A DNA stretch of 64,000 bases from Bacillus multifaciens (GTDB lineage Bacteria > Bacillota > Bacilli > Bacillales > Bacillaceae_G). The stretch spans positions 1 through 64,000 of the forward strand of contig NZ_JAVBXD010000007.1 of assembly GCF_030756675.1 (NCBI RefSeq), in the 5' to 3' direction. The notes under the pieces were generated by a model, which was not told where the DNA came from, searched no databases, and saw only the letters and a list, made by a program, of their open reading frames with translations. This document shows, piece by piece, positions 2,656-48,918 of the stretch; position 1 is the stretch's first letter; each line of letters opens with the position of its first letter. Position numbers and translations under genes: made by a program.

Positions 2656-2891
2656 AGATTCATCTCCCTTTCTTTTTATCAATATCTTATTTTTAGAATG
2701 GACAAAATGAATTACTTTTATACAAAGCTGCCAAAATTATGGTAGATTTTGAGTGAAAATATGTTTATATGCCATTTGTTTCTTACAGGAAGAAAACTTG
2801 CATCACATCGAAAAGAAAGGTAAAATACCATTTAGTGTTTATTGTTATACGTACTTGAGAAAAGTTTCAAATAGAGGAAGTGTTATATACA

Positions 2892-3116
2892 ATGGGAAAC
2901 GAATTTCGTGTGTGTGATGATTGTCAGGCAACGAATATTAAGACGTTAGTACCGCGTTTAAAGAAAATAGATGGATGTGCAGATATTCAAATTGGTTGTC
3001 AATCATATTGCGGTCCTGGTCGCAAAAAATCATTTGCATTTGTAAATAATCGTCCAGTTGCAGCGCCAAATGAAGATGAGCTAATTGAAAAAATTGAAGC
3101 AAAGTTAAACAAGTAA
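2892..3116 (+). CDS. DUF1450 (YuzB-like) small cysteine protein
   Basis: 74 residues. The ATG at 2892 follows AGAGGAAG by 11 bases; a GTG at 2880 in the same frame would overlap that ribosome-binding site, so I reject it. Cysteines occur as CDDC near the N-terminus and as GCQSYCGPG in the middle, the arrangement of the DUF1450 family, which has a thioredoxin-like ferredoxin appearance but no established function. It lies directly before a Fur-controlled iron transporter but ends in its own terminator, so a link to iron is only suggestive. Confidence 0.75.
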
Positions 3117-25690: not shown

Positions 25691-28600
25691 ATGCATTTAA
25701 AAAGAATCACTTCGATTTTCTCAATTATAATGATTTTTATGTTTACTATAGGCCAGAGTTTAATGCCTATAATCGTAAATGCACAAGAGTTAAATACATC
25801 AGGACTTGTGGATAGTTTTCAGATTGGTAAAACAAATCTACAGACCACCGAACGAACTAAAGTAACTGTAAACTTCAGTGAAAAAAATGGTCTTAGGCTG
25901 AAGCCAGGAGACACATTAACATTAACACTGCCTCCAGAATTAAAAGGATTAGATAAAACGTTTCCTTTAGATGATTATGGTACTTGTAAAGCCACTGCAG
26001 GTACTGTTGTATGTACATTTAATGATAAAGTGAATACACATCAAAGTATTAAAGGGTATTTAAACTTTTACGTGGAAGCCGCTAATGTAGGAATGGATCA
26101 AAAGAAGGAGATTGAAACCAATTTCGGTACAAATGTAAATAAGCAAACTGTAACGATTACCGGTCCAACCAGTGGTGGTGGTACAGATCCTGGAAAGCCA
26201 CCGTTTTTTTATAAAACTGGTGATATGAACTCAGGTAAGGACGATGAAGTGCGTTGGTTCTTGAATATAAACTTAAATAAAGAAGAGTTAAGTCGCGATA
26301 TTGTTGTGACTGATAATTTACAGGAAGGTCAAACACTTAATAAGGATAGTTTCTATATAATTATTGATGATTATCTAGGTCGTAGAAGCTTATCGCTAAC
26401 AGAGTTTGAACAGAAGCGTTATGGAAAAATTACCTTTACTGGTGAAAACTCATTTCAAGTTTTGCTTTATAGGGATAAAGCGCGTCTTGCCTCCTTTACG
26501 ATTGGTTATACATCTACTATAACGGAAGCTGGAAAGAAGCAAGATTATTTTAAGAATGATTATACGATTGATTACCAAGTTTATAACAAAGACACAGTTA
26601 CTGAATCAGGTAGTTACCAAGTTGAAAATATGACAGCTGGTGGTGGCGCTAGCGGGGATTTACCTTCAAAAGGAACGCTAAAAATTGTTAAGCACCTTGA
26701 AGGAAATAAAGACAAAGTAATCCCGAATGTTTCATTTAAGTTGTATAAAGAGTCGGGTGAACAAGTTGGGGATCAGTATACAACAGATGAAAAAGGTATT
26801 ATCGAAATCAAGGATTTACTACCAGGGAAATATTATGTGCAAGAAGTTTCAGCGCCAAACTATATTGATTTTGACCCGCAGACAAAAGTAGCGTTTGAAG
26901 TGAAAGCAGATGCTGTAAACGGAATTGAATTACCGATTTCGAATAAAGTGAAAACTACATCTGTTGCAGGAACGAAGACTTGGAAGGATAACAACGCAAT
27001 AAATCGTCCAAAAACGATCAAAGTAGACTTACTACAAAACGGCACAGTGATTGCGACGCAAGAAGCAAGCGAAGCAACAGGCTGGAAGTATGAATTTAAA
27101 GATTTAACAGTATATAATACAGATGGTAAAGAGTATAAGTATGAAGTAAAAGAACAGCCAGTAAACGGATATGAATCCAAAGTGAATGGTTATGACATTA
27201 CAAATACAAAAGTAGGCAAGACAAAAGTAGAAGGAACAAAAATTTGGAAGGATAACGACGCGACAGATCGTCCAATCAAAGTCCAAGTAGAGTTATTCCG
27301 AAACGGTGAAAAGATTGACACGAAAGAAGTAACAGCAATAAACAATTGGAAGTACACATTTGACAATCTAGAAGCGTACGATGCGAATGGAGTCGCATAC
27401 AAGTATGAAGTGAAAGAAAAGCCAGTACCAGGATACAAATCCGAAGTAAACGGTTATGACATTACAAATACAAAAGTAGGCAAGACAAAAGTAGAAGGAA
27501 CAAAAACTTGGAAGGATAACAATACAACAAATCGTCCAAGTACAATCAAAGTCAATTTACTACAAAACGGCACGGTAATTGACACGAAAGAAGTAACAGC
27601 AATAAACAATTGGAAGTACACATTTGACAATCTAGAAGCGTACGATGCAGAAGGCAAAACATATAAGTATGAAGTGAAAGAAGAACCGATAGATGGATAT
27701 CAATCTGAAGTAAACGGTTATGACATCACAAATACAAAGGTTGGTCAAACAAGAGTAGAAGGAATAAAAACTTGGAATGACAACAATGCAACAGATCGTC
27801 CAAGTACAATCAAAGTAGATTTACTACAAAACGATACGGTAATTGACACGAAAGAAGTAAGTGCAGCAACAAATTGGAAGTACACGTTTGACAATCTACC
27901 AGCCTATGATGCAAATGGCAAAGCATATAAGTATGAAGTGAAAGAACAACCAGTACCAGGATATGAATCTAAAGTAAACGGTTATGACATCACGAATACA
28001 AAAGTAGGAAAAGTAATAGTAGAAGGAACAAAGACTTGGAAGGATAACAATGCGACAGATCGTCCAAGTACAATTCAGGTAGACTTGTACCAAAATGGTA
28101 CGTTTCTACTTACACAATATGTGACGGCAGCGGGTGATTGGAAGTACACATTCGTAGATTTACCAGCTTATGATGCAAACGGAAAAGCCTACACGTATAC
28201 AGTGAAAGAGAAACCAGTACCAGGATATGAATCTAAAGTGAATGGTTATGACATCACAAATACAAAAGTAGGAAAAACAAAAGTAGAAGGAACAAAGACT
28301 TGGAAGGATAACAACGCAACAGATCGTCCAAGTTCAATCCAAGTAGAATTACTCCGAAATGGAGAATCGGTTGACACAAAAGAAGTAACAGCGTCAACTA
28401 ATTGGAAATATACGTTTGACAATCTAGAAGCGTACGATGCGAACGGAGTAGCGTACAAGTACGAAGTGAAAGAGAAACCAGTAGCAGGATATGAATCTAA
28501 AGTGAATGGTTATGACATCACAAATACAAAAGTAGGAAAAACAAAAGTAGAAGGAACAAAGACCTGGAAGGATAACAACGCAACAGATCGTCCAAGTTCA

Positions 28601-29605
28601 ATCCAGGTAGAGTTACACCGAAACGGTGAAAAGATTGACACGAAAGAAGTAACCGCAGCAGATGGCTGGAAATACACATTCGACAATCTAGAAGCGTACG
28701 ATGCGAATGGAGTAGCATACAAGTATGAAGTGAAAGAAAAGCCAGTAGCGGGATATGAATCTAAAGTGAATGGTTATGACATTACAAACACAAAAGTAGG
28801 AAAAACGGCAGTAGAAGGAACGAAGACGTGGAAAGACGATAATGCGAAAGATCGTCCGGCAATGATCAAAGTGGATCTACTACAAAACGGTAAAGTAATC
28901 GCAACACAAGAAGTAACAGCGGAAAAAGGTTGGAAATATGCATTTAAAGATTTAGCAGCTTATGATGCGAATGGAGTAGCATACAAGTATGAAGTGAAAG
29001 AGCAACCAGTAGACGGATACAAATCCGAAGTGAAAGGTTATGACATCACAAATACAAAAGTAGGCGAGACAAAAGTAGAAGGAACGAAGACATGGAAAGA
29101 CGATAATGCAAAAGATCGTCCAAGCATGATTAAAGTTGACCTATTACAAAACGGCAAGGTAATCGCGATGAAAGAAGTAAGCGAAGCAACTAGCTGGAAA
29201 TATGCATTTACAGATTTAGCAGCATATGATGTTGACGGAAAAGCATATAAGTATGAAGTAAAAGAACAACCGGTAGACGGATATCAATCCGAAGTAAACG
29301 GTTATGACATTACGAATACAAAGATTCCGGAATGGACAGATGAAGATCCAAAAGATCCAAACAAAGGTCCAAACGTAGATCCAAAAGATCTAAACACAAA
29401 TACAGACACAAATAGTGATCCAAAAGATCCAAACAAAGGTTCAAACGTAGATCCAAAAGTTCCATCTAATAAAGAAAACGATAAGACGACAGTATTACTT
29501 CCTAAAACAGGAGGAGCACCAGCGGAGATGATTTCAATTGTTGGCGGTATGGTATTGTTCGTTATAGGTGGAATTTTATTCGCTCGTCAACGAATTAAAC
29601 AATAA
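25691..29605 (+). CDS. LPXTG cell-wall adhesin with nine Cna-B repeats
   Basis: 1304 residues. A signal peptide (about 1-31) precedes an A region (about 35-310) whose DEVRWFLNINL and DNLQEGQTL resemble collagen-adhesin binding domains. A SpaA-type domain follows (about 328-418), then nine near-identical 88-residue Cna-B domains (about 421-1212). Each repeat has the lysine of TKTWKD, the glutamate of YEVKE and the asparagine of DITNT needed for an internal Lys-Asn isopeptide bond. A D/P/N-rich wall spacer leads to LPKTG at about 1270, a hydrophobic span and RQRIKQ. Sortase A should fix it to peptidoglycan. AGAGGGGGG lies about 13 bases before the ATG. The ligand is unknown; collagen binding is only suggested. 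Confidence 0.92.
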   Translation: MHLKRITSIFSIIMIFMFTIGQSLMPIIVNAQELNTSGLVDSFQIGKTNLQTTERTKVTVNFSEKNGLRLKPGDTLTLTLPPELKGLDKTFPLDDYGTCKATAGTVVCTFNDKVNTHQSIKGYLNFYVEAANVGMDQKKEIETNFGTNVNKQTVTITGPTSGGGTDPGKPPFFYKTGDMNSGKDDEVRWFLNINLNKEELSRDIVVTDNLQEGQTLNKDSFYIIIDDYLGRRSLSLTEFEQKRYGKITFTGENSFQVLLYRDKARLASFTIGYTSTITEAGKKQDYFKNDYTIDYQVYNKDTVTESGSYQVENMTAGGGASGDLPSKGTLKIVKHLEGNKDKVIPNVSFKLYKESGEQVGDQYTTDEKGIIEIKDLLPGKYYVQEVSAPNYIDFDPQTKVAFEVKADAVNGIELPISNKVKTTSVAGTKTWKDNNAINRPKTIKVDLLQNGTVIATQEASEATGWKYEFKDLTVYNTDGKEYKYEVKEQPVNGYESKVNGYDITNTKVGKTKVEGTKIWKDNDATDRPIKVQVELFRNGEKIDTKEVTAINNWKYTFDNLEAYDANGVAYKYEVKEKPVPGYKSEVNGYDITNTKVGKTKVEGTKTWKDNNTTNRPSTIKVNLLQNGTVIDTKEVTAINNWKYTFDNLEAYDAEGKTYKYEVKEEPIDGYQSEVNGYDITNTKVGQTRVEGIKTWNDNNATDRPSTIKVDLLQNDTVIDTKEVSAATNWKYTFDNLPAYDANGKAYKYEVKEQPVPGYESKVNGYDITNTKVGKVIVEGTKTWKDNNATDRPSTIQVDLYQNGTFLLTQYVTAAGDWKYTFVDLPAYDANGKAYTYTVKEKPVPGYESKVNGYDITNTKVGKTKVEGTKTWKDNNATDRPSSIQVELLRNGESVDTKEVTASTNWKYTFDNLEAYDANGVAYKYEVKEKPVAGYESKVNGYDITNTKVGKTKVEGTKTWKDNNATDRPSSIQVELHRNGEKIDTKEVTAADGWKYTFDNLEAYDANGVAYKYEVKEKPVAGYESKVNGYDITNTKVGKTAVEGTKTWKDDNAKDRPAMIKVDLLQNGKVIATQEVTAEKGWKYAFKDLAAYDANGVAYKYEVKEQPVDGYKSEVKGYDITNTKVGETKVEGTKTWKDDNAKDRPSMIKVDLLQNGKVIAMKEVSEATSWKYAFTDLAAYDVDGKAYKYEVKEQPVDGYQSEVNGYDITNTKIPEWTDEDPKDPNKGPNVDPKDLNTNTDTNSDPKDPNKGSNVDPKVPSNKENDKTTVLLPKTGGAPAEMISIVGGMVLFVIGGILFARQRIKQ
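26950..29325 (+). repeat. Tandem 264-bp repeats, nine copies
   Basis: In-frame units encoding the Cna-B domains, each ending in GGTTATGACAT(T/C)AC(A/G)AA. Units 6 and 7 are almost identical, units 8 and 9 form a second close pair, and units 2 and 3 share long blocks, which points to duplication and conversion within the array. Confidence 0.9.
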
Positions 29606-32506: not shown

Positions 32507-33634
32507 ATGGTTGAAAAGAAGCAGTTTGAAATCTTTCCAAAACATATGGGGCTTTTCCCTTATATATGGCTCGTATACTTGTTGTTTCCTCTTTACAGCT
32601 TTATGGGGCAATCAGGGTGGAAATTGATATTAGGAGGCGGTATGCTTGTCCTCTTTGTTATCGCATACCGCCAGCTTTATTTTGTGCCAAATAATTTTGT
32701 TATGTGGGCCTGCATTCAACTTGTAATTACATTCTTATTTAGTACGTATTATAACCCATATATGATTTTCTTTGGATTTTATACAGCAAATGCAATGGGA
32801 TTTGCACCGACAAAAAAACAATTTCGCTTGTTGTTTTTCCTTTTGATTACAATGATTGGTTCGTTTATGTTGGTGAACATGCGCGAGTTTACAAACACGT
32901 CTGCTATAACTGCAATTCCGATGTTTATTTTAATGATTGTTACACCTTTTGGCATGCGGAATTTTAACCAGAAAAAAGTATTAAGAACACAATTAAGTGA
33001 AGCGAATGAACAAATCCGTGATTTAGTGAAGCGCGAAGAACGCCAGCGTATTGCACGAGATTTACATGATACGTTAGGACATACGTTATCGCTTATTACG
33101 TTAAAAAGTCAGCTTGTTGAGAAGCTTATCGTGAAAAATCCGGAACGCGCTTGTCTAGAAGCGAAGGAAATTACGCAAACATCTAGAACAGCGTTAAAAC
33201 AATTGCGGGAATTAATTTCTGATATGCGGATGATTACTGTCGAAGAAGAGCTAGAGCAAGTAAAGGTGATTCTTCAAGCTGCTAGCATATCGCTTGAGGT
33301 GCAGCAGGAGACAAGTACGAATGTATTATCACCGCTAGAGCAAAACATTGTCGGAATGTGTTTACGTGAAGCGGTGACAAATGTTGTGAAGCATAGTAAA
33401 GCAACAGAGTGCACGATTACATTATTTGAAGAACAAGGGAAATTGATCGTGCAAGTAAAGGATAATGGTATTGGATTACAAAAAAATCACGATGGGAATG
33501 GTATTCTTGGTATGAGAGAGCGATTGGCTCTGATTGATGGAATGCTTAAATTAAATGATGTTCATAATGGAACGATGTTAACGATACATGTTCCAATTGT
33601 CATAAGAACGGGGAAAGAGGGTGCGCGTGCATGA
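32507..33634 (+). CDS. Sensor histidine kinase, NarL-type partner (YvfT/DesK-like)
   Basis: 375 residues. About four to six membrane segments fill residues 15-160, followed by a coiled linker and a HisKA_3 box, ERQRIARDLHDTLGHTLS, with the phospho-accepting histidine. The ATPase domain has LREAVTNVVKHSKA, DNGIGL and GILGMRERL. It lacks an extracellular sensing domain, so it probably senses the membrane or the transporter itself, as in DesK and LiaS-type kinases. It begins one base after the permease stop and overlaps the regulator gene by four. Confidence 0.9.
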   Translation: MVEKKQFEIFPKHMGLFPYIWLVYLLFPLYSFMGQSGWKLILGGGMLVLFVIAYRQLYFVPNNFVMWACIQLVITFLFSTYYNPYMIFFGFYTANAMGFAPTKKQFRLLFFLLITMIGSFMLVNMREFTNTSAITAIPMFILMIVTPFGMRNFNQKKVLRTQLSEANEQIRDLVKREERQRIARDLHDTLGHTLSLITLKSQLVEKLIVKNPERACLEAKEITQTSRTALKQLRELISDMRMITVEEELEQVKVILQAASISLEVQQETSTNVLSPLEQNIVGMCLREAVTNVVKHSKATECTITLFEEQGKLIVQVKDNGIGLQKNHDGNGILGMRERLALIDGMLKLNDVHNGTMLTIHVPIVIRTGKEGARA

Positions 33635-34233
33635 TTCGAATCATTATTGCAGAAGATCAGCGTATGCTTCGCGGAGCATTAGGAGCTTTACTGGACTTAG
33701 AGGATGACATTGAAGTCGTTGGGCAAGCAGAAAACGGAGAAGAGGCTTTAAAGCTAATTGAAACATTACAGCCGGATATTGGTATTATGGACATTGAAAT
33801 GCCGATTCAAAGCGGTCTCGATGTTGCTGAAACGTTACGGAAACAGCAATCACCCTGCAGAGTTATGATTTTAACAACATTTGCTCGTCCTGGTTATTTT
33901 GAGCGCGCAATGAAAGCAAATGTGCAGGGATATTTATTAAAAGATAGCCCGAGTGAAGATCTTGCAGCGGCAATTCGTAATGTGATGAATGGAAAACGAG
34001 AAATTTCTCCTGAGCTTATGTTTGGGCTTTGGCAAGAACAAAATCCATTAACAGATAGGGAAAAGGAAGTTCTTCTATTAGCGAAAGAAGGAAAGACGAC
34101 AAATGAAATCGCCAAAACGCTGTATCTTTCATCTGGAACCGTGCGAAATTATATTTCGGATGTTCTAACGAAGCTAGATGCAAAAAATCGGATTGAGGCG
34201 ATTGGGATTGCCGAAGAAAAAGGCTGGATATGA
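33631..34233 (+). CDS. Response regulator, NarL/LuxR type (YvfU/DesR-like)
   Basis: 200 residues. The receiver has the acidic pair in IIAEDQRMLRG, the phosphorylated aspartate in GIMDIEMP and the lysine of LLKDSP. The LuxR-type DNA-binding domain runs from NPLTDREKEVLLLA to ISDVLTKLDAKNRIEA. It should be phosphorylated by the kinase encoded just upstream and act on the operon's own promoter. Confidence 0.92.
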   Translation: MIRIIIAEDQRMLRGALGALLDLEDDIEVVGQAENGEEALKLIETLQPDIGIMDIEMPIQSGLDVAETLRKQQSPCRVMILTTFARPGYFERAMKANVQGYLLKDSPSEDLAAAIRNVMNGKREISPELMFGLWQEQNPLTDREKEVLLLAKEGKTTNEIAKTLYLSSGTVRNYISDVLTKLDAKNRIEAIGIAEEKGWI

Positions 34234-34277
34234 AAAAAGATGTTTACCAATGTGAATCGGTAAACATCTTTTTTTAC
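34230..34277 (+). terminator. Terminator of the ABC/two-component operon
   Basis: AAAAAAGATGTTTACC and GGTAAACATCTTTTTTT pair perfectly; on the other strand the same hairpin follows the nprB-like remnant. Confidence 0.85.
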
Positions 34278-34833
34278 CATTTTTTCTTGGAATAATATTT
34301 CACCATTCATTAAATCAATAATTGCGTGATCACTAACGATTTGATCATTATTTTCATATATAAATGTAATAACATCAGCGTATGTGTAGTTGCCGTCTGC
34401 CTTTTTATAAATGACAGTTTCACTAGTGAACTCTTTTTCTAGCGCATCGTTTAGAATTTGAAGAGCGCTTCGTAAGGAAGTTTTTACTTCATTTTTCGAC
34501 AAAAAATTTGTTATAGTAAGATTAGGTTGTTGTGCTAAATTTTGGACAATCTTGCCGCTGACAGTTGTAATTACTCCATTTTTATCTACTTTTACAATTA
34601 AGTCTTGGCCGTATACTTTGTAGCTTTATAAGTTTGGGTAAGACGTACTTTTGTTTGATTTTCTTTTGTTTTGTTTCTTTATTTGTCAGTTGGAAATCAA
34701 CATTTTTTTCAGTGGTAACTTGTTCTTGTTGTGCCTTTGCCCCTTGTACTTGGTTTTTATCAATTTTTTGCGTATGAATTACTTCAGTTGATAAAGAAAG
34801 GAACAGACCGAAAGTAAGAAGGGCACAAGTCAT
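34260..34833 (-). pseudogene. nprB: M4 metalloprotease propeptide remnant (NprB-like)
   Basis: On the minus strand a signal-peptide-like start (TCALLTFGLFLSLST) leads, through at least two one-base frameshifts near 34600-34640, to VYGQDLIVKVDKNGVITTVSGK and then to SLRSALQILNDALEKEF, and later IIDLMNGEIL. These are the FTP and PepSY propeptide parts of thermolysin-family proteases. The whole catalytic domain with HExxH is missing; the sequence runs straight into the terminator. A PlcR-controlled nprB divergent from plcR is the known arrangement in B. cereus, so this is its probable relic. Confidence 0.7.
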
Positions 34834-34916
34834 TTTTTATAATTCATCTCTAATACTCCTAATCTTGTATTTGTATGAGATGAATTGTAAGGGGAAATTG
34901 CTGAATTCTATATAAA

Positions 34917-34948
34917 TTATGCGATATTTCGTATCGAAATTTGTCGAA
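34917..34948 (+). promoter_or_regulatory. plcR control region: degenerate PlcR box and Spo0A box
   Basis: TATGCGATATTTCGTA (34917-34932) fits the PlcR consensus TATGNAN4TNCATA with two mismatches. TGTCGAA (34942-34948) is a consensus Spo0A box. The published plcR promoter is activated by PlcR and repressed by Spo0A through such sites. Confidence 0.5.
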
Positions 34949-35014
34949 ATGGCATTATTGTAGTGGTATGGCCATTTTTTTACTAAATTGCTATAAATGG
35001 GATGGTGGACGAAT

Positions 35015-35872
35015 ATGCACGCGCAAAAACTAGGAGCCGAAATTAAAAAGATTCGAGCAATGAGAGGTTTAACACAAAAGCAGTTATCTGATAACATATG
35101 TCATCAATCTGAGGTAAGTAGAATTGAATCAGGAGTAGTATATCCAAGTATGGATATATTGCAAGGAATTGCGGCGAAGCTACAAGTACCAATTATTCAT
35201 TTTTATGAAGTACTGGCTTATTCCGATATTGAACGAAAAAAACAATTTATGAGCCATATTAAAGTGCTATGTAAACAAAAGAAATATGAAGAAATTTATA
35301 AAAAGGTATGGGATGAATTAAAGAAAGAGGAAGATCATCCAGAGTTTCAACAGTTTCTTCTTTGGCACCATCACTTATCAGCGTACGTGTTAAAAAAAGT
35401 AAATTATGAATACTGCATTTTGGAATTGAAAAAATTAATAAATCATCAATTAGTAGGTATCGATGTGTTTCAAAATTTATATATCGAAAATTCAATTGCA
35501 AATATTTATGCGGAAAATGGACATATTCAAAAAAGCCTCGAACTTTATCAAGATATTTTAAAACAGTTAGAGTCACTACATAGTAACGAGGAATTTGCGA
35601 TAAAAGTTGGCTATAATTATGCTAAGACATTGTATTCAGATGAACAGTATGAACGAGCTCTTTATCAAGTTAAAGCAGCCATTGAAACATCATGCAGTAT
35701 TGGTAACATGACACTTATTGGGCAATTATTTTATCAAAAAGGAGAATGTCTGGAACAGCTAGGGCATCCAGAAGATGATAGTAGAATTGCTTACGAAAAA
35801 GCGCTTTTCTTTTTTGAACTGTTAGACTTATACGCTTATAAAAATACGCTTTTAAATAAACTGAATGTTTAA
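35015..35872 (+). CDS. plcR: PlcR, quorum-sensing virulence regulator
   Basis: 285 residues, exactly the length of PlcR. An N-terminal XRE-type helix-turn-helix (LGAEIKKIRAMRGLTQKQLS, then CHQSEVSRIESG) is followed by five degenerate TPR repeats (about 70-285) that bind the PapR peptide. PlcR with PapR activates secreted enterotoxins, phospholipases and proteases. The start at 35015 follows GGATGGTGG. The TPR half seems clearly divergent from the PlcR I remember from type strains (from memory only), in line with the unusual PapR next door. Confidence 0.93.
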   Translation: MHAQKLGAEIKKIRAMRGLTQKQLSDNICHQSEVSRIESGVVYPSMDILQGIAAKLQVPIIHFYEVLAYSDIERKKQFMSHIKVLCKQKKYEEIYKKVWDELKKEEDHPEFQQFLLWHHHLSAYVLKKVNYEYCILELKKLINHQLVGIDVFQNLYIENSIANIYAENGHIQKSLELYQDILKQLESLHSNEEFAIKVGYNYAKTLYSDEQYERALYQVKAAIETSCSIGNMTLIGQLFYQKGECLEQLGHPEDDSRIAYEKALFFFELLDLYAYKNTLLNKLNV

Positions 35873-35888: not shown

Positions 35889-35904
35889 TATGCACAATTG
35901 CATG
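35889..35904 (+). promoter_or_regulatory. PlcR box upstream of papR
   Basis: TATGCACAATTGCATG matches TATGNAN4TNCATA at all but the last defined base. It lies 56 bases before papR, with TATATT as a possible -10 about 20 bases further on. Confidence 0.7.
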
Positions 35905-35959: not shown

Positions 35960-36106
35960 ATGAAGAAAATTCTTGTTGGAAGTTTATTAACATTAGCAAT
36001 GCTAGCTGGTATTTCATTTGGCGGTACATTAGTAGATCAAAATCAAGCAGTAACAAATCATAGTGATGTAGTACAATTAGCTTCAGATTTACCATATGAG
36101 CATTAA
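35960..36106 (+). CDS. papR: PapR signalling peptide precursor
   Basis: 48 residues, too short for most gene finders. A basic start (MKKILVG) and hydrophobic signal sequence precede a polar part that ends in ASDLPYEH. The secreted precursor is cut outside the cell to a C-terminal heptapeptide, imported by the oligopeptide permease and bound by PlcR. The heptapeptide here is SDLPYEH; I know ADLPFEF, SDMPFEF, NEVPFEF and SDLPFEH as the published types, so it is nearest to the last. The gene is immediately downstream of plcR as always. Confidence 0.92.
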   Translation: MKKILVGSLLTLAMLAGISFGGTLVDQNQAVTNHSDVVQLASDLPYEH

Positions 36107-36114
36107 GATATAAA

Positions 36115-36149
36115 AACAACCGTCTAATCAAGGCGGTTGTTTCTTTTTT
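36115..36149 (+). terminator. Terminator after papR
   Basis: AAACAACCG and CGGTTGTTT around a short loop, then CTTTTTTA. Confidence 0.8.
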
Positions 36150-36153
36150 AGGT

Positions 36154-36276
36154 TTTATTCCCCGAATAGAGTCCCCTACTCATTGAAAGAGTACTAAATC
36201 TTGATTCAATTGTTTCCATCTTGTAAAGGTCATTGTTTTTGCAGGAGAACAGTTCACAATGTAAGTTTCACTTTAT
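36154..36276 (-). repeat. bcr1-like element at the 3' end of the cardiolipin synthase gene (degenerate)
   Basis: It is bounded by TTTAT at 36154-36158 and 36272-36276. The right end GTAAGTTTCACTTTAT is typical; the left end (TTCCCCGAATAG) is diverged. The right TTTAT contains the stop codon of the cardiolipin synthase gene. Confidence 0.55.
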
Positions 36277-37466
36277 AGAAAAAAAGAAAGTAACGTTCCA
36301 ATCCATTCTTTTCCTTTATCCAAAAGGGATAGAGAAGAAACATCGTCCATAGAAAGTAAAACGGAAGATTCTAAATCTTGATCGATTTCTTTCTTCACTT
36401 GTTCTAAAAATGGTGAGCCATATAATATACAATTAATTTCATGGTTAATATATAAGCTTCGCTTATCAAAATTTGCTGTTCCAATATCACAAATATAGCC
36501 ATCTACCATTACAATTTTCGCGTGAAAAAATCCATCTAGAAATTCGTAAATATGACAGCCTGCTTGAATAAGCTTCCGGCAATATGGAAGTTTTGCTTCG
36601 CGAACGAATGGATGATCTGCTTTTTTAGGTACGAGTATCGTGATACGAACGCCTCTTTTGTGAGCGCGCAGCAATGCGTTCGTTAGTTTTTTGCTAGGAA
36701 TAAAATAGGGTGTACCAATATACAGCTCTTTCGTTGCCTTTTCAATGAGATCGAGAAAAGTTTGTTGTAAATATGCGCCGTCGGTCGGTATGAACTGATG
36801 AGAAGTTTCACCTTTTTTTAGTATTGGAAAATAATAATTTTCGTGCAATAAGTCTTCATTTGTATCATCGCGCCAATCGTGTAGAAACTGCGTTTGCAAA
36901 TCTTGCACACCCTCTTCGGTAAGACGGAGATGATAGTCACGCCAAGCCCCTAGTTCTTTGTTGTGTCCTAAATATTCTTCCCCGATGTTGAAGCCTCCGA
37001 TGTACCCGATTTTTCCATCGATAATTGTAATTTTTCTATGGTTTCTTTGGTTAACAGAGAAAAAGAGAAAGGGAAGGCGAATTTTATGACAAAATGAAAA
37101 GTGCACACCGCGCTCCTTTAATTTATGGATCATTTGTTTTGACAAATGATGACTGCCGATTCGGTCAAGAAGAAGGCGAACTTCAATACCTTGCTCTGCT
37201 TTTTCCATTAAAAGCTGTAAAAAGGTATGGCTAATCTCATCATTTTTTACGATAAAAAACAAAATATGTATATGATGTTTAGCGTGTTGTATATCAGTAA
37301 ATAGTTCCTTATATAATGTTTGTCCGTATGTATACAGTTTAAAATTACTATGGCGTATAGGAAAGGAACGTGGTTTAAGGCTGTTTAAATGGATTTTTCT
37401 TCCGCATATAAAGTCGAAAGTTGCCCACAGTAAGAGAAAGATAAGGACGAGAAATAAAAAGCTCAT
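36273..37466 (-). CDS. Cardiolipin synthase-type phospholipase D protein
   Basis: 397 residues. One N-terminal membrane segment (about 1-17) precedes two PLD domains; the HKD motifs are HRKITIIDG (about residue 142) and HAKIVMVDG (about residue 320). Such enzymes condense phosphatidylglycerol to cardiolipin, although B. cereus has several paralogues. Typical Cls has two membrane segments and about 480-510 residues; this shorter form matches the B. subtilis YwiE/YwjE-like group. It is the usual neighbour of papR in this group. Confidence 0.85.
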   Translation of the reverse strand: MSFLFLVLIFLLLWATFDFICGRKIHLNSLKPRSFPIRHSNFKLYTYGQTLYKELFTDIQHAKHHIHILFFIVKNDEISHTFLQLLMEKAEQGIEVRLLLDRIGSHHLSKQMIHKLKERGVHFSFCHKIRLPFLFFSVNQRNHRKITIIDGKIGYIGGFNIGEEYLGHNKELGAWRDYHLRLTEEGVQDLQTQFLHDWRDDTNEDLLHENYYFPILKKGETSHQFIPTDGAYLQQTFLDLIEKATKELYIGTPYFIPSKKLTNALLRAHKRGVRITILVPKKADHPFVREAKLPYCRKLIQAGCHIYEFLDGFFHAKIVMVDGYICDIGTANFDKRSLYINHEINCILYGSPFLEQVKKEIDQDLESSVLLSMDDVSSLSLLDKGKEWIGTLLSFFL

Positions 37467-48771: not shown

Positions 48772-48918
48772 TCGTGAATTTTTTATTAAAAAATATGGAA
48801 AAAAGCGTTTTCATGGACTGATGAGCAGGTGAATGCGGTTGAGTTTTTGAGTACAAGTTGGTATCCTATGGAGTGTAGAAGAAAGTCCGGTATGTGATTA
48901 TACATATTTTTCCTCGTC

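Follow-up and report, generated by a model that had tools for sequence, protein, structure and literature searches.

A probable pherotype IV-like PlcR-PapR pair

The 64,000-nucleotide stretch of DNA analysed here (the window) carries a plcR-papR pair whose presumed signal, SDLPYEH, most probably represents a variant of an already described signal rather than a new language. We give a probability of roughly 60% to the reading that the two genes form an intact PlcR-PapR system from the Bacillus cereus group, with a pherotype IV-like signal bearing a conservative Phe-to-Tyr change at place 5, which works normally and to which pherotype IV receptors respond at least in part. Tyr5 and His7 are both within the usage of the receptor family and the peptide is one base change away from SDLPFEH, so a working pherotype IV-type pair is the simplest reading. 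The family matches, the gapless PlcR alignment, the kept Lys87, Lys89, Gln237 and Tyr275 and the conserved gene order speak for it; against it stand the divergent TPR part of PlcR and the fact that two of the three relatives with Tyr5 are weak analogues. Confidence is held at this level because pherotype IV is reported to be highly specific, the PFEF core is reported as the more conserved part of the peptide and Tyr in class II comes from one review's notation. Both genes, their families, their neighbours, the residues that bind the peptide Glu and a terminator behind papR are present in the window; the functional closeness to pherotype IV is what we infer.

PlcR-PapR is a model for specificity between a short signal and its receptor. 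A natural allele that is one hydroxyl group off a tested pherotype would tell if Phe5 is a specificity place or a mere hydrophobic anchor, and the relatives with the same core described below, four of them with an exact PlcR box before the signal gene, form a natural series on the joint change of signal and receptor. By analogy with papers on other strains, PapR would be secreted, cut to SDLPYEH and re-imported; the heptapeptide would bind the TPR groove of PlcR, and peptide-bound PlcR would activate PlcR-box promoters, including that of papR.

The papR gene and its product

papR (35960..36106, forward strand) is an ORF with an ATG start encoding a 48-residue signal precursor, and it begins 87 bp downstream of the end of plcR, as expected of PapR, a small gene directly behind plcR. 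The product scored 60.8 bits with the Pfam family Bacillus_PapR (PF05968; cut-off 27, E 1.6e-16), and papR is therefore a real gene and no chance ORF. Translation of the ORF confirmed the statement of an earlier note on this DNA that the last seven residues of PapR are SDLPYEH. The N-terminus resembles a signal sequence by eye. The C-terminal seven residues are reported as the mature PapR in other strains (PMC4147580) and, by analogy, the codons of the presumed mature heptapeptide lie at 36083..36103 (forward strand). The Tyr codon is TAT (36095-36097), a single base different from the Phe codon TTT. An intrinsic terminator (36114..36142, forward strand, -16 kcal/mol) stands behind papR, and none of 200 shuffles folded as stably. 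The NCBIfam search gave zero matches for PapR and none exceeding the cut-off for PlcR; searches with PapR found nothing in the plasmid collection at E 0.01 or in the phage collection at E 0.1.

The PlcR receptor

plcR (35015..35872, forward strand) encodes a receptor and activator of 285 residues with position 35015 as its start, or 291 in the longest ORF (34997-35872). With its HTH_3 and RNPP_C domains, that is an HTH plus an RNPP TPR domain, and its high similarity to the solved PlcR, the product belongs to the PlcR class. Residues 1-284 align gap-free to the sole PlcR sequence in the PDB (2qfc, 3u3w, 4fsc; E 4.4e-133) and, judged from this alignment, plcR is intact and full-length. Identity to the crystallised PlcR was 58/66 (88%) in residues 1-66, 131/204 (64%) in residues 81-284 and 38/69 (55%) in residues 216-284, and residues 118-122 are HHHLS here vs. 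QYYVA in the crystallised protein. The earlier note was thus right that this 285-residue PlcR is divergent in its TPR half, as measured against one PlcR only, the crystallised protein of group I.

Lys87, Lys89, Gln237 and Tyr275 are all conserved in the window PlcR. According to PMC6568020, Lys89, Gln237 and Tyr275 are specific partners of the peptide Glu, both Phe side chains of the peptide sit in hydrophobic pockets, and activation is stopped by alanine or D-residues at Pro4, Glu6 and Phe7; the sections of that paper examined contain no test of Tyr at place 5. In a scan of genome contigs PlcR found three loci, with best identities of 35% (short stretch) and 31% (full length), while in viral contigs four stretches fitted a pattern and none was confirmed.

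The heptapeptide compared with known pherotypes

The four group heptapeptides given in the earlier note (ADLPFEF, SDMPFEF, NEVPFEF and SDLPFEH) agree with Table 1 of PMC3673130. To say that every group has Phe at the third-last place is too strong, as the class II signal is written VP(F/Y)E(F/Y) in a review (PMC5007282), whose notation is the one support for Tyr in class II in the sections consulted. The same review names the first and last residues of the pentapeptide as the generally variable places that give specificity. In the window pentapeptide these are Leu and His, the same as in pherotype IV. Since the pentapeptide is LPYEH and not LPFEH, the strict pherotype IV form, the proteins are filed as PapR and PlcR, pherotype IV-like. 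SDLPFEH and the window peptide agree in six of the seven residues, Leu3 and His7 among them, and differ at place 5 (Phe in PapR IV, Tyr here). SDLPFEH is the heptapeptide reported for strain G9241, and KDLPFEY that for ATCC 14579 (PMC10017872). In the part of PMC7267880 consulted, high specificity is ascribed to pherotype IV receptors, so even a mild Phe5-to-Tyr change might matter, and the PFEF core is reported as the more conserved part among 29 strains (PMC6568020).

The signal was also said to be unusual. It does differ from the four textbook heptapeptides, but Tyr at the third-last place is not in itself unusual, and the idea that it is unprecedented was rejected: it occurs in the class II notation, in PapRa7 and in the propeptides of three of ten relatives. 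Class II allows Tyr at the same place as in the window peptide, but its Pro is preceded by Val and its final residue is aromatic, where the window has Leu and His. The PapRa7 peptide of the PlcRa-PapRa7 system, CSIPYEY, likewise has Tyr third-last (PMC3519770, in the sections consulted), although this is a paralogous system with a 93-residue precursor and different residues at both ends of the peptide. The PapR-like peptide of an Exiguobacterium alkaliphilum plasmid (locus L010), SDLPYEV, shares six of seven residues with the window peptide, Tyr5 included, but its receptor is only 33% identical and has neither Lys89 nor Gln237, and the gene lies upstream and divergent. SDLPYEH and LPYEH, searched as word beginnings, were absent from the literature searched, and the strings VPYEY, VPYE and LPYE were not found there (VPYE and LPYE among the matches listed).

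Gene neighbourhood and PlcR boxes

The region upstream of plcR contains a yvfT-like sensor kinase (32507..33634, forward strand; HisKA_3, DesK_N and HATPase_c), a yvfU-like response regulator (33631..34233, forward strand; Response_reg and GerE), both named from family and place, and an ABC transporter pair. The same gene order is reported for the B. cereus group in the part of PMC2588459 consulted. A protease gene remnant of at least two open pieces, in the place and orientation of nprB, lies at 34149..34836 (reverse strand). In one piece the FTP propeptide profile reached 19 bits (E 0.0013), below its cut-off of 21, and the other piece matched nothing meaningful; the name nprB is based on place. 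A PDB search with a remnant piece gave a single weak match to an unrelated cytochrome construct, which was taken as noise. NprB is reported to mature PapR, and nprB remnants are reported in other strains, among them G9241, whose peptide is SDLPFEH (PMC10017872). As the gene at the nprB place is a remnant here, PapR would probably be processed by another protease.

A PlcR-box-like site with one mismatch (35889..35904, forward strand) ends 55 bp before the papR start, and a weak one with two mismatches (34918..34933, forward strand) lies upstream of plcR. The window has six one-mismatch sites vs. 3.74 expected, which is not significant (13 of 100 shuffles reach six), and 66 two-mismatch sites vs. 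49.3 expected (one of 100 shuffles reaches 66); these window counts were not taken alone as evidence. It is the location of the site at 35889..35904, not the count, that suggests a PlcR box there. Another one-mismatch site (48891-48906), which may be due to chance, lies 76 bp upstream of an ORF (48983) whose product belongs to the class II fructose-bisphosphate aldolase family.

Two further genes were observed in the window. A likely surface adhesin of 1304 residues (25691-29605, forward strand) combines a collagen-binding domain with nine Cna_B stretches. A 397-residue protein with PLD-like domains (36273-37466, reverse strand), which we take to be cardiolipin-synthase-like, is encoded convergently with papR.

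Alternative readings

The pair could instead represent a fifth specificity group: Tyr5 and the groove of PlcR would have changed jointly, leaving little crosstalk with pherotype IV. The 131/204 identity of the TPR part to the group I PlcR, the change from QYYVA to HHHLS at residues 118-122, the high specificity described for pherotype IV (PMC7267880, in the part consulted) and the absence of SDLPYEH from the literature searched would all fit such a group. However, with group I as the only reference, the divergence may amount to no more than what normally separates groups, the specificity places carry the Leu and His of class IV, and Tyr5 is a mild change that is used elsewhere (class II, PapRa7 and the relatives). 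We consider a fifth group unlikely. More doubtful still is its extended form, in which SDLPYEH and the divergent PlcR, with Tyr5 and groove co-changed, would be a fifth group inside wider cross-genus PlcR-like/PapR-like circuits with an LP[F/Y]E core, some of them with exact pherotype I or IV pentapeptides, and bacteria of one genus may respond to, or be blocked by, signals of another.

It is very improbable that the pair is decaying, with the neighbouring protease gene reduced to a remnant and the signal drifting without selection. The remnant at the nprB place and the box mismatches (one before papR, two before plcR) would be in line with decay, but plcR and papR are full-length and the contact residues are kept. 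Moreover, functional plcR-papR is reported in other strains in which nprB is absent or truncated, and PapR can be processed by another PlcR-regulated protease (PMC10017872, in the sections consulted).

PlcR-like genes and signals outside the B. cereus group

Twenty-one plasmid records contained PlcR-like genes, as did, at E <= 1e-15, 49 of the 398 genomes from the class of G001. Out of a larger number of matches we examined nine of the 21 plasmid places, L004, L011-L039, L001 and L005, which gave 41 loci whose receptor reached E <= 1e-15. A signal-like small ORF ending in or repeating [LIVM]P[FY]E was found within about 700 bp in 12 of the 41 loci, vs. 0.0 such ORFs per set when the flanks were randomly resampled (first-order) in 30 rounds. 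Once the copies L004, L011 and L015 were removed, nine distinct loci remained, and L036, which failed the signal filter and was seen on inspection (its precursor has five KEIPFEF copies), brought the total to ten distinct propeptides that have an [LI]P[FY]E core and adjoin a PlcR-like gene in bacteria other than the B. cereus group. L036 alone among the ten passed the Pfam PapR cut-off (28.6 bits, cut-off 27); the propeptides of the other nine may be called PapR-like by place and motif. The PapR profile found nothing in the 398 genomes of the class of G001, which is not evidence of absence, since the controls likewise gave 0/14.

Place 5 is Phe in seven of the ten relatives (L001, L006, L008, L009, L013, L036 and L040) and Tyr in three: L010 (SDLPYEV), L028 (TELPYEY, three times) and L041 (LDLPYEA). 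L008, L009 and L040 end in His. The receptors were compared over the matched part of each row. Eight have Gln at 237, the exceptions being L010 with Asn and L041 with His; at 89, six have Lys, L001/L004 and L036 have Gly, L010 has Gln and L041 has His. L010 and L041 therefore have neither Lys89 nor Gln237, both of which are kept in the window, and are weak analogues; L028 is the only fair analogue among the three Tyr5 relatives.

Other cores were also observed: LPLEY or IPLEY repeats at L017, L024, L025 and L026, LPPEY repeats at L034, LPFQH at L037 and L038, LPFIN at L020 and LPDIY at L018. The remaining examined loci had no clear signal candidate. The LPFQH candidates (L037 1132-1323 and L038 2645-2767), with Gln for Glu6, adjoin receptors with Glu at 237 instead of Gln, which raises the possibility of a swap of the two partners. 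Glu237 was also present at L035, L039 and L043, with no recognised signal.

An exact PlcR box was found within 400 bp in five of 36 loci (random resampling: mean 0.05 sites per set, largest 2 in 500). In four PlcR-like/PapR-like pairs it stands 43 to 107 bp before the signal gene: L006 (signal gene 2882-3058, box at 3102), L008 (2881-3048 and 3114), L013 (2369-2542 and 2600) and L040 (1177-1359 and 1467). These pairs come from plasmids of Planococcus versutus, P. maritimus and Alkalihalophilus pseudofirmus and from one genome. At L007 the exact box was present and no signal gene was found.

The pherotype IV pentapeptide LPFEH is exact in an Exiguobacterium plasmid (L009 2373-2522) and in the Alkalihalophilus plasmid (L040 1177-1359), and the pherotype I pentapeptide LPFEF in Exiguobacterium flavidum (three copies, L001 4891-5109) and in one genome (L013 2369-2542). 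Crosstalk between genera through these shared pentapeptides is possible. Tandem precursors with three to six signal copies and an LP[FYLP]E[FY] or IP[FL]E[FY] core were seen beside PlcR-like genes at L001 (4891-5109), L017 (2374-2742), L024 (1090-1458), L025 (2379-2699), L028 (2353-2586), L034 (2383-2721) and L036 (2393-2710); PlcR-type precursors with repeats, up to six copies, are already known according to the part of PMC9765709 consulted.
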